A DNA stretch of 32,652 nucleotides. Source: Flavobacteriales bacterium. GTDB lineage: Bacteria; Bacteroidota; Bacteroidia; Flavobacteriales_F; PHOS-HE28. Position numbers and translations under genes: made by a program. The stretch is from NCBI GenBank assembly GCA_019912395.1, contig JAIOIH010000079.1:1-32652 (forward strand). The letters run 5' to 3'. Shown one piece after another: positions 2,980-21,799 of the stretch (the stretch's first letter is position 1; each line of letters begins with the position of its first letter). Under the pieces are notes generated by a model. That model was not told where the DNA came from. It worked only from the letters and a program-made list of their open reading frames with translations, and did not search any database.

Positions 2980-3005
2980 GCGGGATCGGGGAAGGGGGCG
3001 GGCTG

Positions 3006-3013
3006 GAAATATA
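3006..3013 (-). promoter_or_regulatory. Putative -7 promoter box (TATATTTC)
   Basis: Read on the minus strand this is TATATTTC, one mismatch from the Bacteroidota -7 consensus TAnnTTTG. It ends 27 nt before the ATG at 2979. No clear -33 element was seen. The rest of the 334-bp divergent gap (2980-3313) shows no open frame or RNA structure that I recognise. Confidence 0.4.
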
Positions 3014-3275
3014 GGCCGCACAGGGTATCAGCCGAGCAGCCGATCAGCGGAACCTCGGCCTTAGCCGCGATATTGACGGGGATGGATCACCGAGCATGCC
3101 GATGACCACCAATGCCCGTGCGGGAAAAGCTGTATCCATCCGTGCCGATCCGTGGTTCCTCCCCAAGAACCTGTTCAGGATCTCTTGGCGATGGACCACG
3201 AGTCCATTTTCGTTCAGGCGGAGCCGAAAGACCCGATGGTCCTGTTGTTCCATGCCTGATCGGAACGAAGGGTTC

Positions 3276-3283
3276 TACATTCG
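3276..3283 (+). promoter_or_regulatory. Putative -7 promoter box (TACATTCG)
   Basis: TACATTCG has one mismatch to TAnnTTTG and ends about 30 nt before the epimerase ATG at 3314. A purine-rich GGAAAGG lies directly before that ATG and may serve as a ribosome binding site. The -33 element is not evident. Confidence 0.33.
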
Positions 3284-3313
3284 CGCCGAACTGAGTTGGA
3301 CCCCGTGGAAAGG

Positions 3314-4399
3314 ATGAAGAAGTTGATGGTAGTGGTGGGCACGCGCCCGAATTTCATCAAGGTGACCCGCTTCAAGGCGGTGGCCGCCGAACGCGGCATG
3401 CACGTGGACCTGGTGCATACCGGCCAGCACTACGATGAGCAGATGAGCACCGTGTTCTTTGATCAGTTCGGCCTGCTGCCGGACCGCTTTCTGAACACCC
3501 CACAGGCCAGCCCTGCCGCACAGATGGGCCATATCATGATCGCCTTGGAGGCCACTGCCAAGGAACTCGCGCCGGACCTGATGATCGTGCCCGGGGATGT
3601 GAACAGCACCTTGGCCGGGGCCTTGGTGGCCAACAAGATGGGCATCCCCCTCGGGCATTTGGAGAGCGGCCTGCGCAGCGGCGATATGGGCATGCCGGAG
3701 GAGATCAATCGCATCCTGACCGACCGGATCACGGACCACTTCTTCGTCACCGAGCAAAGTGGCCTGGACCACCTGAAGGCCGAGGGCCGGGCCGCTGAGG
3801 ACATTCATTTCGTGGGCAACACCATGATCGATACGCTGGTAGCCTACGATGCCCAAGTGCAGGCCGCAACGGTTCTGGAGGACCTTGGCCTGAAGCCCGG
3901 AAGCCATGTGCTGATGACGATACACCGCCCGGCCACGGTCGATTCCCCGGAGGAACTGGCCAAGTTGGTGGAGCTGATCGCCTTTGTGGCGCAGGACCGG
4001 AAGGTGGTGTTCCCGGTACACCCGCGTACCACCGCCAAATTGGAGACCACCGGCCTGATGAGGCGCCTGAAAGCCTTGGGCAATGTGCTGTTGACGGGGC
4101 CGATGGACTACTTCAACTTCCAGAAGCTGATCGCCACCTGCGCCTTCGTGATCACCGACAGCGGCGGCATCCAGGAGGAGTCCACCTACCGCCGCGTACC
4201 CTGCCTCACCCTGCGGCCGAACACGGAACGGCCCATCACCATCACCCTCGGCTCCAACCGCCTGATCACCTTCGACCTGCCGCTGCTGCAAGCGGCCATC
4301 GCGGACATCACCGAGGGGCGCGCGAAAAGGGGTGAGGTACCGCCGCTTTGGGACGGCCATGCCACCGAACGTGTATTCGATGTGATCGCCAAGCTGTGA
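3314..4399 (+). CDS. wecB: UDP-N-acetylglucosamine 2-epimerase (non-hydrolysing)
   Basis: This 361-residue cytosolic enzyme should interconvert UDP-GlcNAc and UDP-ManNAc, supplying ManNAc-type sugars for surface glycan. Family motifs are intact: GTRPNFIK near the N-terminus, HTGQHYDEQMS, PGDVNSTLAGA, HLESGLRSGDMGMPEEINR (substrate and catalytic loop with the conserved Glu and Arg) and DSGGIQEES near the C-terminus. The length is normal. ATG 3314 is chosen over an in-frame ATG at 3296 because homology starts at MKKLMVVVGTRPN and a GGAAAGG precedes it. The next glycosyltransferase gene overlaps its stop by four bases. No UDP-ManNAc dehydrogenase partner is in the window. Confidence 0.93.
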   Translation: MKKLMVVVGTRPNFIKVTRFKAVAAERGMHVDLVHTGQHYDEQMSTVFFDQFGLLPDRFLNTPQASPAAQMGHIMIALEATAKELAPDLMIVPGDVNSTLAGALVANKMGIPLGHLESGLRSGDMGMPEEINRILTDRITDHFFVTEQSGLDHLKAEGRAAEDIHFVGNTMIDTLVAYDAQVQAATVLEDLGLKPGSHVLMTIHRPATVDSPEELAKLVELIAFVAQDRKVVFPVHPRTTAKLETTGLMRRLKALGNVLLTGPMDYFNFQKLIATCAFVITDSGGIQEESTYRRVPCLTLRPNTERPITITLGSNRLITFDLPLLQAAIADITEGRAKRGEVPPLWDGHATERVFDVIAKL

Positions 4400-5529
4400 T
4401 CCTCTACCTCACCTATAACGACCAGCCCTCGGGCGTGTACTGGAGCCAGGTGACCGATGTGGTGGCACACCTGAACACCTTGGGCGGTCCGCAAGTTCGG
4501 TTGGTTGCGCTGGTAAGTGCCCGCGACTACTTCGGCATCCGCCGGAAGATCCGCGCACACAGCCCGGATGCCTTGGTGCTGCCCATGGTGCCGCAGATGA
4601 AGCGCTGGCGCAGCAATGCGGTGCTGGTGAAGATCGCCTGCCGTTGGCTGCGGCCCAGCGGCATGATCGCGCGAGGTGCCTTGGCCACGTGGATGGCGTT
4701 GCGGGTCCGGGACAAGGGGTTGGTGAAGAAGGTCTGCCTTGATGCGCGCGGTGCCTATGCTGCCGAGTGGGAGGAGTACCGCATCATTGACGATGACGCA
4801 TTGATCGCCCAGTTCCGCGAGGTGGAGCAGGAGGTGGTGGCCCGGAGCGATCTCCGCCTTGCGGTGAGCAACGCACTGGTGGAGCATTGGCGCGAACGAT
4901 ACGGCTATGCGCAACAAGGGCATGTGGTGATCCCCTGCACCTTGGGCCGCGCCCATGTGGGGCAGCCTGTGGAGGTGGAAGCCGAGCGGGAAGCACTGGG
5001 CTTCGGACCGGAGGATGTGGTGATGGTGTACTCCGGCTCCACGGCGGGTTGGCAATCCTTTGCGCTGCTGGAGGGGCTTTTGCGCCCGGTGCTGGAGGTC
5101 CAGCCGAGGACGAAGGTGCTCTTCCTGTGCCCGCCGGACCCCGCCATCGATAGCATGGCAAGGGATCATCTCGGCCGCGTGCTTTCCACTTGGGTGCCTT
5201 CGGCCGAGGTGCCCGCAGTGCTGCAGGCCTGCGATGTGGCCTTGCTGGTGCGCGAGGATTCCATCACCAATCGCGTGGCCTCGCCCACCAAGTTCGCCGA
5301 ATACCTCGCTTGCGGCCTGCCGGTGATCATCAGCGAACGCATCGGTGATTTCTCCGAAGTGGTGCAACAGCACCGGCTGGGTATCGTGCATGCCGAGGGG
5401 GCCACGCTGCCCGTTCTGGAAAGGCCGAGGGCGGATGAGCGCAAGCGTTGCCACGACCATGCACGCGAGCACTTCACCAAGGAGGCGCACAATGCCTCGT
5501 ACCGGAAGGTGATGGAGGCGTTGGCTTGA
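4396..5529 (+). CDS. Glycosyltransferase, GT4-like
   Basis: This 377-residue putative sugar transferase begins at GTG 4396, overlapping the epimerase stop (GTGA), so the two are probably translationally coupled. The N-terminal half starts MILYLTYNDQPSGVYWSQV, with the substrate-facing Gly-rich loop expected of a GT-B fold. The C-terminal half has YSGSTAGWQSFALLEGLL, then ACDVALLVREDS...SPTKFAEYLACGLPVI, the usual nucleotide-sugar-binding end of GT4 enzymes, with Glu in K-F-A-E-Y. An upstream ATG at 4348 lies inside the epimerase and is rejected. Donor and acceptor are unknown. Confidence 0.8.
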   Translation: MILYLTYNDQPSGVYWSQVTDVVAHLNTLGGPQVRLVALVSARDYFGIRRKIRAHSPDALVLPMVPQMKRWRSNAVLVKIACRWLRPSGMIARGALATWMALRVRDKGLVKKVCLDARGAYAAEWEEYRIIDDDALIAQFREVEQEVVARSDLRLAVSNALVEHWRERYGYAQQGHVVIPCTLGRAHVGQPVEVEAEREALGFGPEDVVMVYSGSTAGWQSFALLEGLLRPVLEVQPRTKVLFLCPPDPAIDSMARDHLGRVLSTWVPSAEVPAVLQACDVALLVREDSITNRVASPTKFAEYLACGLPVIISERIGDFSEVVQQHRLGIVHAEGATLPVLERPRADERKRCHDHAREHFTKEAHNASYRKVMEALA

Positions 5530-20279: not shown

Positions 20280-20325
20280 ATAAGTAGCTAAATGTGCCTT
20301 TCAAATGCTGGTTATGGCTACTTAT
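20280..20325. repeat. 46-bp palindromic direct repeat, left copy
   Basis: It starts ATAAGTAGC and ends GCTACTTAT and is 38/46 identical, without gaps, to the copy at 21754-21799 in the same orientation. Its own arms pair over 11 of 13 positions. The stop codon of the ATPase gene (20322-20324, minus strand) lies inside it. Read on the minus strand, the -7-like sequence of the other copy is degraded here (CACATTTA). Confidence 0.93.
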
Positions 20326-21737
20326 AGCGTGACGAACAGGTCGTCCATCGTCAGTTCGTTCTGCACGGTCTGCCGACTGTACATGTTCTCCAATATCCCG
20401 TAGGTAGTGATCATGGTGAGCATTACACTTTTTCTTGTGCCGGTGGACCGCCGGAACAGCTCCACCTTGTTGGCGAGTTCCGAGCTGTACTTTTTGTCGA
20501 TCTTGAAGGCCGCGTTCACGAACTTCATTTCGCACACGTTGATCACGTTGTCGTCTCGGTCGATGAGCAGGTCGATCTGGGCACCCTTGTCCCCGTTCTT
20601 CTCGATCCAGCTCGCATCCTCGGAATGCACACCGGAGATGCCCAGTGCGAACTTGATCTGGTCCACGTGCTTCATGCATACGGTCTCGAAGGTGAAACCG
20701 CTCCAAATGCGGTAGGATGCGCCCCCTTGCAGCTTCACCCAATATCCTCCGCGCCCCGGTACCGATTTCTCCATGAACTTGATGTAGAACATGGAATACT
20801 CGTCGATCAGGCGGAACAGGGGGTCCTTCACCCCGCGATAGGGCATGTACCGCTGCACGAAACCCGATTGCTCCAGCTCCGTCAGGGTCTTGGTCAGCGT
20901 GCCTCCCGATGCCAGGCCGCTCTTCCTTGCGATCGCGGTGCGGGTAAGCCCTTTGCGCACATGGCCCAGGACGCGCACGATCGCTTCATGATTCTCGGAA
21001 CGGTCGAACAAGGAAGCGAACACATTGTCGAACTCGGCACTCAGCGGCCCGTTGCGCTGAAAGCAGAGGCGGTCCAGGGCCTGGGCCACGCTTTCCCCTG
21101 GAGCGATCTTCTCCAGGTAGTGCGGTACGCCGCCCATTGCCATGTAAACCCGGAGGATGTCATACCTCGTGAACTTTACCCCCCTCCATTGGAGTAGCTG
21201 TTCGGTCTCCACAAGATCGAAGGGCATAAGCTGGATGCGCTGCGAAATGCGGTTATGCAGGCCACCCTTGTTCTTGATCACCTTGCTGATCATGTACGAG
21301 GCCGCCGATCCGCAGATCACCACCACGAGGTCCTTGCGCTTGCTGGCATAGCTGTTCCAGAAGTTGCTGAACGCGGGCAGGAAGCGCGAGCGGCGCGTAT
21401 CAAGCCACGGGAACTCATCGATGAAGATCACCTTCTTCCTCCGTGAGCGGTCCTTGGTGATGTGCTCCCCCAGCCGATGGAACGCTTCCAGCCAATCAGC
21501 GGGCGGGCCGGCATGCTTGCGATGTGCTGAAAGTGCCAAATGGAAGTTCTTCAATTGGTCGTTCAGCGTACCGCGATGCAGGCTCGAAAGCTCGAACCGG
21601 ATCGAATCCCGGTACATGTTGCGCACGAGGTAGGTCTTTCCGATACGCCTACGGCCGTACACCACGACGAGTTCCGAGCGATCGCTTTTCAAGGCATCAT
21701 CCAAGATCGCCTTCTCTTGTTTTCGACCGATGACCAT
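20322..21737 (-). CDS. AAA+ ATPase with winged helix and PD-(D/E)XK-like C-terminal domain
   Basis: This 471-residue protein has Walker A GRRRIGKT (28-35) and Walker B KKVIFIDEFPWLD (101-113), with a sensor-like ICGSAASYM (141-149). A predicted winged helix (about 250-300) includes TRTAIARKSGLASGGTLTKTL. The C-terminal domain shows Asp389 in QIDLLIDRDD, then Glu403 and Lys405 in VCEMKF, the D...E-x-K pattern of PD-(D/E)XK nucleases. The layout fits the COG1672-like/DUF234 ATPases, often multi-copy in archaea and some bacteria, with unsettled function. ATG 21737 is chosen because family similarity begins at MVIGRKQEKA; a start at 21776 would lie in the flanking repeat. It is the only gene between the two repeats. 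Confidence 0.83.
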   Translation of the reverse strand: MVIGRKQEKAILDDALKSDRSELVVVYGRRRIGKTYLVRNMYRDSIRFELSSLHRGTLNDQLKNFHLALSAHRKHAGPPADWLEAFHRLGEHITKDRSRRKKVIFIDEFPWLDTRRSRFLPAFSNFWNSYASKRKDLVVVICGSAASYMISKVIKNKGGLHNRISQRIQLMPFDLVETEQLLQWRGVKFTRYDILRVYMAMGGVPHYLEKIAPGESVAQALDRLCFQRNGPLSAEFDNVFASLFDRSENHEAIVRVLGHVRKGLTRTAIARKSGLASGGTLTKTLTELEQSGFVQRYMPYRGVKDPLFRLIDEYSMFYIKFMEKSVPGRGGYWVKLQGGASYRIWSGFTFETVCMKHVDQIKFALGISGVHSEDASWIEKNGDKGAQIDLLIDRDDNVINVCEMKFVNAAFKIDKKYSSELANKVELFRRSTGTRKSVMLTMITTYGILENMYSRQTVQNELTMDDLFVTL

Positions 21738-21753
21738 CCCTTTATGCAATTCT

Positions 21754-21799
21754 ATAAGTAGCCAAATGTACCTCAATAATGCCGGTTTTGGCTACTTAT
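21754..21799. repeat. 46-bp palindromic direct repeat, right copy (overlaps ATPase promoter)
   Basis: Arms ATAAGTAGCCAAA and TTTGGCTACTTAT are perfect 13-bp inverted repeats. It is 38/46 identical to 20280-20325. It lies just upstream of the ATPase start and includes a perfect -7 box on the minus strand, so protein binding to the palindrome could control the gene. Confidence 0.93.
21763..21770 (-). promoter_or_regulatory. Putative -7 promoter box inside the repeat, perfect TAnnTTTG (TACATTTG)
   Basis: On the minus strand TACATTTG is a perfect match, ending 26 nt before the ATG at 21737. It overlaps the promoter-proximal arm of the palindrome. The expected transcript start falls inside that arm, a layout typical of an operator. 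Confidence 0.5.

Follow-up and report, generated by a model that had tools for sequence, protein, structure and literature searches.

Why is a single bacterial gene boxed by two similar palindromes? The question arises in a stretch of 32,652 nucleotides (the window) from a Flavobacteriales bacterium (GenBank assembly GCA_019912395.1, contig JAIOIH010000079.1, positions 1 to 32,652 of the forward strand), in which two 46-bp palindromes, in the same orientation and both of the form ATAAGTAGCY ... RGCTACTTAT, flank one minus-strand open reading frame (ORF) for an ATPase of the PDC-S27 family. An initial annotation, made from the sequence alone, took the palindromes for the ends of a compact excisable cassette. 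From the sequence comparisons reported here we consider it quite likely that they are binding sites of the encoded ATPase-nuclease, which would repress its own gene through paired operators.

Reading of the sequence confirmed the two repeats, which agree at 38 of 46 positions and differ at 8 (82.6% identity by BLAST). The ORF between them (20322-21776, 484 aa) begins with a TTG inside the right copy, and its stop codon (20322-20324) falls within the left copy, as had been described. Translation more likely starts at an ATG (21737) that lies 16 nt away from the right palindrome, giving a protein of 471 aa. Within the window's assembly (4.13 Mb, 87 contigs) the ATPase gene is single-copy and the exact palindrome arms are found only at these two places; a stricter pattern allowing up to 3 mismatches in 26 specified letters returned the same two places only (reversed control, 0). 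The features of the locus, all on the minus strand, are as follows.

20280..20325, minus strand: downstream palindrome, a proposed second operator that includes the stop codon and has no -7 box (sequence and half-site match).
20322..21737, minus strand: ATPase_2 / winged helix-turn-helix (wHTH) / PD-(D/E)XK-like protein of the PDC-S27 family, 471 aa, from the inferred start codon (profiles and predicted structure).
20523..20573, minus strand: nuclease-type motif D389 ... E403-x-K405 (alignment and predicted structure).
20808..20954, minus strand: predicted wHTH, residues 262-310, with recognition helix 279-290 and wing strands 294-297 and 307-310 (weak MarR-type Pfam matches below cut-off, predicted structure).
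20826..20828, minus strand: wing codon 304 (K), co-varying with half-site base 12 (co-variation).
20889..20909, minus strand: codons 277-283, with the proposed specificity residues S277, T280 and K283 (co-variation).
21633..21656, minus strand: Walker A motif GRRRIGKT, residues 28-35 (alignment).
21754..21799, minus strand: upstream palindrome, proposed main operator, with two 16-bp half-sites and a 14-bp gap (sequence and half-site model).
21763..21770, minus strand: TACATTTG, a Bacteroidetes-type -7 box (TAnnTTTG) by consensus, within the upstream palindrome and absent from the downstream copy.

The PADLOC profile PDLC04984 for PDC-S27 covers residues 15-481 of the 484-aa ORF (E 8e-192, profile positions 4-473 of 474), and on this match the gene is a PDC-S27 candidate for anti-phage defence. 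Pfam identifies an ATPase_2 domain (E 1.7e-14, 54.7 bits with a cut-off of 33.2) and weaker MarR-type helix-turn-helix matches that fall below the cut-off, and it detects no transposase domain; an NCBIfam search of the protein gave no match. The Walker A and B motifs are intact, with G28, R29, R30, R31, G33, K34, T35, D107 and E108 invariant across 18 aligned proteins and position 32 occupied by V or I. The protein was modeled with a predicted local distance difference test (pLDDT) score of 89, and the best solved structural matches, over residues 1-321, are the archaeal ATPases 2qen (Z 19.6, 302 residues, root mean square deviation (rmsd) 3.4) and 2fna (Z 19.0, 292 residues, rmsd 3.2), with CED-4 and plant NLR ATPases ranking below them (Z about 15); this match list barely tests the C-terminal part. 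For that part we looked for the PD-(D/E)XK motif of nucleases: among the 18 aligned proteins E403 is present in all and D389 and K405 in at least 90%, and the predicted order of elements at residues 340-444 is helix-strand-strand-strand-helix-strand. Because the C-terminal domain folded alone gave a poor model (pLDDT 57), which was left out of use, the assignment as PD-(D/E)XK-like is made from the motif and the order of elements. It agrees with the initial annotation, and with the text of PMC12988326, where PDC-S27 is an ATPase fused to the PD-(D/E)XK superfamily.

With weak and partial matches counted, the PDC-S27 model at E ≤ 0.001 has matches in 61 of 395 phylum genomes and 71 of 395 class genomes; in the class survey seven genomes (G439, G688, G736, G533, G627, G649 and G528) carry three copies each. 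A second PDC-S27 model, PDLC04985, was dropped as a comparison family, having matched 17 of 148 genomes, with a strong match in one genome and, in several, hits to genes that PDLC04984 also matches. The named loci are the best 80 of at least 581 relatives, to which loci from the genus and the phylum were added. A palindrome scoring at least 10 lies within 150 bp upstream of 56/79 named loci, versus 15/146 other ORFs and 22/790 dinucleotide shuffles. A model of paired half-sites placed two facing 16-bp half-sites, with the consensus ATANTTNGCCAAAANT, upstream of 82 of 96 loci (base-shuffled control, 7/288), and their gap was 13-14 bp in 80 of these 82 training pairs, though 12-18 bp was allowed. 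The arrangement recurred in a held-out set, for which 83 loci were listed, 81 had an ORF, and 71 were retained after dropping those at least 90% identical to the training loci or to each other: 61 of the 71 have a half-site pair (shuffles, 17/355), with a gap of 13-14 bp in 60.

The reader of these half-sites is very likely the winged helix of the same protein, as judged from the co-variation of its residues with half-site bases in two sets of loci. The training comparison used 81 loci, counting only those whose two halves agree at the base in question and leaving out L105, whose reading frame is interrupted by a stop. Bases 10 and 11 co-vary most strongly with residue 277 (0.72 and 0.67, with the next columns at 0.37 and 0.34), bases 6 and 7 with residue 280 and base 12 with residue 304, and residue 283 comes second for base 7; bases 1-5 have no clear partner column in the wHTH of these 81 loci. 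Ranked among 376-384 columns, the held-out loci returned 280 first for bases 6 and 7, 277 first for 10 and 11, 304 first for 12 and 283 second for 7, and the rule from residue 277 to base 10 was correct in 51/59 of them, versus 32/59 for a constant call of C. Over 152 loci, a tally that includes training and near-duplicate loci, S or T at 277 goes with C in 89/89, N with T in 22/26, and D or E with G in 22/29; R304 goes with T in 29/30 and other residues there with A in 106/111; R283 goes with G in 37/42 and T280 with A in 27/30. The window obeys this code, with S277, T280, K283 and K304 alongside A7, C10, A11 and A12. Contrasts between closest pairs rank residue 277 first for base 10 and third for base 11 (third and sixth in a second analysis), and rank residue 304 third and then second for base 12 (11/11 vs 10/54 in the second). 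In the predicted structure 277, 280 and 283 lie at or along the start of recognition helix 279-290, and 304 lies in the wing between strands 294-297 and 307-310. The earlier suggestion that the protein might act on the palindromes has thus gained in substance.

Where the upstream palindrome sits relative to transcription is suggested by promoter consensus. TAnnTTTG is given as the Bacteroides -7 consensus in the text of PMC4747536. Read in gene orientation, this box stands at a constant position in all 8 proximal upstream palindromes of the genus and in none of 13 downstream, distal or solo copies, mostly through replacement of TA by CA. In the named set it is present in the sense direction in 53/79 upstream regions (13/79 antisense), versus 30/149 of the other ORFs, and beyond the genus TAnnTTT falls at the right half-site of proximal palindromes in 35/55 sense versus 3/55 antisense. 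By this consensus the operator would overlap the gene's own promoter.

A second palindrome accompanies most loci, in one of two positions. A downstream copy of the locus's own palindrome was found in 44 of 145 loci (shuffled, 0/725), and 38 of these 44 lie within -6 to +21 of the stop codon; an earlier and stricter test with each locus's own half-sites gave 10/68, against 15/816 for cross pairs. At least two upstream copies are present in 63 of the 101 loci lacking a downstream copy, versus 9 of the 44 with one (Fisher p 4e-6). In all, 107/145 loci carry either two or more palindromes within 260 bp upstream or a palindrome at both ends, and the 9 just named show both arrangements. In the 74 training loci the half-sites upstream mostly run in the order ><>< (26) or >< (17), and the spacing between half-sites of the same direction is 53-54 bp in 75 of at least 116 cases. 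The half-site arrays and the two-site arrangement would fit cooperative or looped binding.

The following scheme is what we infer from the half-site pairs with their narrow spacing, from the co-variation with the protein, and from the promoter box and second site. A dimer of the ATPase-nuclease would read two half-sites through its winged helices, with 277, 280 and 283 acting from the recognition helix and 304 from the wing. Binding at the upstream palindrome, on the promoter, would block RNA polymerase and keep a potentially harmful nuclease at a low level. The second palindrome, at the stop codon here and in tandem upstream elsewhere, would strengthen binding through cooperation or through a DNA loop, of about 1.47 kb in the window, and repression would be released once an attack is sensed. 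The gene may spread horizontally as a single-gene defence candidate that carries its operators along, as its patchy distribution and the empty sites described below suggest.

Several results weigh against this scheme or parts of it. No half-site pair was obtained for 14/96 training and 10/71 held-out loci. The loci are related, which inflates the co-variation counts, and held-out and training loci belong to the same clades; the counts of downstream and upstream copies and of arrays were likewise computed with related loci unthinned. Support from closest pairs is weaker for 280 and 283 at base 7 (ranks 5 and 64 in the first analysis, 17 and 13 in the second), and 280 at base 6 ranks 60 and 96. 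As a block, wHTH residues 262-300 are only marginally enriched among the top-ten columns, at base 7 (p 0.049, with 11 bases tested), and since the other ten bases were not significant, block enrichment was rejected and the signal assigned to single residues. Half-sites of foreign loci match downstream regions in 111/1450 trials, so half-sites are partly alike between loci. The -7 box is missing from the right half-site in 20/55 proximal palindromes, distal palindromes hold TAnnTTT in 13/27 sense versus 8/27 antisense, and a -33/-7 pair is present in only 9/79 upstream regions (4/149 other ORFs), on which count a regular -33 box was rejected as a feature. A palindrome on the promoter could also serve activation.

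The initial annotation had pointed to related genes boxed by the same repeat, to solo palindromes and to an empty site between the type IX secretion system (T9SS) gene and guaB as things to look for, and each of these was found. In the genus, 11 of 45 genomes have any match to the protein, three of them only relatives 27-28% identical, and 8, the window's included, have a close homologue or a fragment. By eye, short palindromes of other sequence seem to lie near the start of the distant ATPase_2 relatives (L011, L012 and L013). All seven genus copies with both ends visible, the window's among them, are boxed by palindromes, and because they are boxed alike this is more than chance. A search of the 45 genomes for the core GCCAAAT-N18-ATTTGGC with a variable gap found 20 places in 9 genomes, 18 of them of 32-bp length (reversed control, 0); the window's own palindromes depart from so strict a pattern and fall outside the 18. 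Of the 18 full-length matches, 17 are no more than about 510 bp away from a whole or partial copy of the gene, and the one in G033 stands alone. The repeat is thus neither confined to the window nor scattered without the gene among these genomes.

The genus copies and remnants occupy five neighborhoods: A (G024, copy b of G022, G010 and G043), B (G018, the fragment of G034 and the solo palindrome of G033), C (the window), D (copy a of G022) and E (G036). The outer arms are ATAAGTAGCC in the window and G018, ATAAGTGGCC in G010 and G022 copy b, and AACC(G/T)CAGCC in G024, G022 copy a, G043 and G036, and at the two ends of one locus they match apart from single-base differences. They track the protein clade rather than the site, the site A copies being split between two clades (Shimodaira-Hasegawa-like approximate likelihood ratio test support 99 and 95; G043 was placed through its N-terminal piece). 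At site B, the gene of G034 is truncated: its 5' part is missing together with the upstream palindrome, and the downstream palindrome is kept. Where G034 has the gene fragment, G033 has a lone palindrome (L070, 6825-6856) without an ATPase gene, and ABC transporter-like ORFs come after it. The two copies in G022 (L063, 5928-7457 and 17161-18708) are about 10 kb apart and differ in arm sequence, possibly representing two specificities that do not cross. A 73-nt direct repeat (88%) lies outside the box of G022 copy a (L006, 1101-1173 and 3188-3260).

Sites without the gene were sought around guaB, which was matched in 40 other genomes, with 29 guaB loci fetched. None of the 29 has the ATPase gene. 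A T9SS-type gene lies 22-207 bp upstream of guaB at 20 of them and about 1.06 kb away at two; at the other seven no T9SS-type gene was seen, three of these having less than 450 bp of upstream sequence. The gene was therefore probably gained at the window's site, where the joined window flanks and the G023 intergenic region (site C) are too diverged to place an insertion boundary or a target duplication. At site A, a stretch of 2053 bp in G024 corresponds to about 46 bp in its near relative G037, with flanks 93% (left) and 77% (right) identical. The difference reaches about 257 bp (left) and 48 bp (right) beyond the palindromes, in what is a single near pair in which a later deletion in G037 is possible. 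At another seven site A loci, all lacking the gene, both flanks are present; the gaps between them measure 48, 52, 146, 602, 828, 1110 and 1358 bp, and the sequences are too diverged for junctions to be placed. Because the G024/G037 breakpoints lie off the palindromes, our reading, on the thin evidence of one near pair, is that the palindromes are operators moving along with the gene and not recombination ends.

Homologs, 44% identical at best, are also found on plasmids and in phage records. Among the plasmid records fetched, an upstream palindrome is present in Emticicia (Bacteroidota), Butyrivibrio and Segatella, and Malaciobacter (L212) has no half-site pair of this type. A copy in Wolbachia phage WO (38% identical) encodes a DUF234-type ATPase (L211, MN180249.1, coding sequence 2989-4452); upstream, by eye, are two short palindromes in tandem with TATAAT in the loop and arms of about 7 bp, which is under the threshold of our script. 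In two WO records (L214 and L215) with no gene annotated there, a similar palindrome persists, again by eye, between the same head genes.

In view of the phylum survey and of the empty site in G037, we demoted the excisable cassette from main reading to rival. A minimal element able to transpose or excise, with the palindromes as its ends and the ATPase-nuclease as its recombinase, would account for boxed copies or remnants in five neighborhoods of one genus, for the 29 guaB loci without the gene, for the truncated copy and solo palindrome at site B, for genomes with two to three copies and for the plasmid and phage homologs, and at E ≤ 0.01 VchTnsC alone among PDB sequences matches the profile (E 2e-5, AAA+ part only). 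Against it, no downstream copy was found in 101/145 loci and the upstream copy is the commoner one; the near empty site breaks outside the palindromes, and a promoter box sits within the upstream one. We regard this explanation as improbable.

An ordinary upstream operator with an unrelated, terminator-like hairpin downstream seems very improbable to us. By palindrome score alone downstream palindromes are not enriched (13/77 vs 21/146 other genes), so they were rejected as a general feature, as such a hairpin would lead one to expect; yet the downstream copies repeat their locus's own half-sites well beyond shuffles and in the stricter test, the two ends change together between clades, and loci lacking the downstream copy more often have a second one upstream. 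The least probable of these readings, in our estimate, is that the palindromes are cleavage targets of the nuclease or a self-marker, with regulation secondary. It draws on the presence in one protein of a nuclease motif and an apparent ability to read the palindromes, but because nearly all core matches in the genus lie near the gene the palindromes are not frequent targets, and cutting its own promoter would be self-harm. We retain autorepression through paired operators as the preferred explanation.

Several known systems resemble parts of this arrangement. The likeness to PDC-S27, a PADLOC candidate, is a whole-protein profile match. The word "promoter" is absent from the main texts of PMC12988326 and PMC13356809, which name PDC-S27, and the box, the two-site rule and the residue-to-base code would be additions to the family as those main texts describe it. 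No report of palindromes at the PDC-S27 family was found in the literature searched, which lacked most subscription papers and preprints. PABY2304 (2qen) and SSO1545 (2fna) share the AAA+ and following winged-helix region (residues 1-321) at 16-17% identity, but their alignment ends before the C-terminal nuclease-like part. There are autorepressors that bind palindromic operators on the core promoter, some of them with a second operator for looping; an operator over the gene's own promoter, paired sites and specificity in a recognition helix are features in common, whereas the reader here would be an AAA+ ATPase-nuclease and not a small repressor, and its repression is proposed from sequence. 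Repetitive extragenic palindromes (REP) with REP-associated tyrosine transposase (RAYT) genes also place palindromes on either side of a single gene, but here the protein has no Pfam transposase domain and no scatter of the palindromes is seen in the genome or genus.

For the PDC-S27 family the palindromes offer a concrete first lead to function, in that they point to the DNA that the protein probably reads, and to its location. The residue-to-base code predicts the operator that a given mutant should bind, and a possible way of restraining the nuclease is suggested by the two-site rule. A bolder proposal, which we hold to be doubtful, is that the ATPase-nuclease bridged across two operators is itself the sensor, silent and self-repressing, and that its freeing by phage takeover of transcription, DNA damage or a phage protein would both arm the nuclease and open the promoter; if so, the helix-and-wing code would allow each family member's operator to be predicted from that member's sequence. 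Finally, repeats on both sides of a gene do not necessarily make it a transposon.
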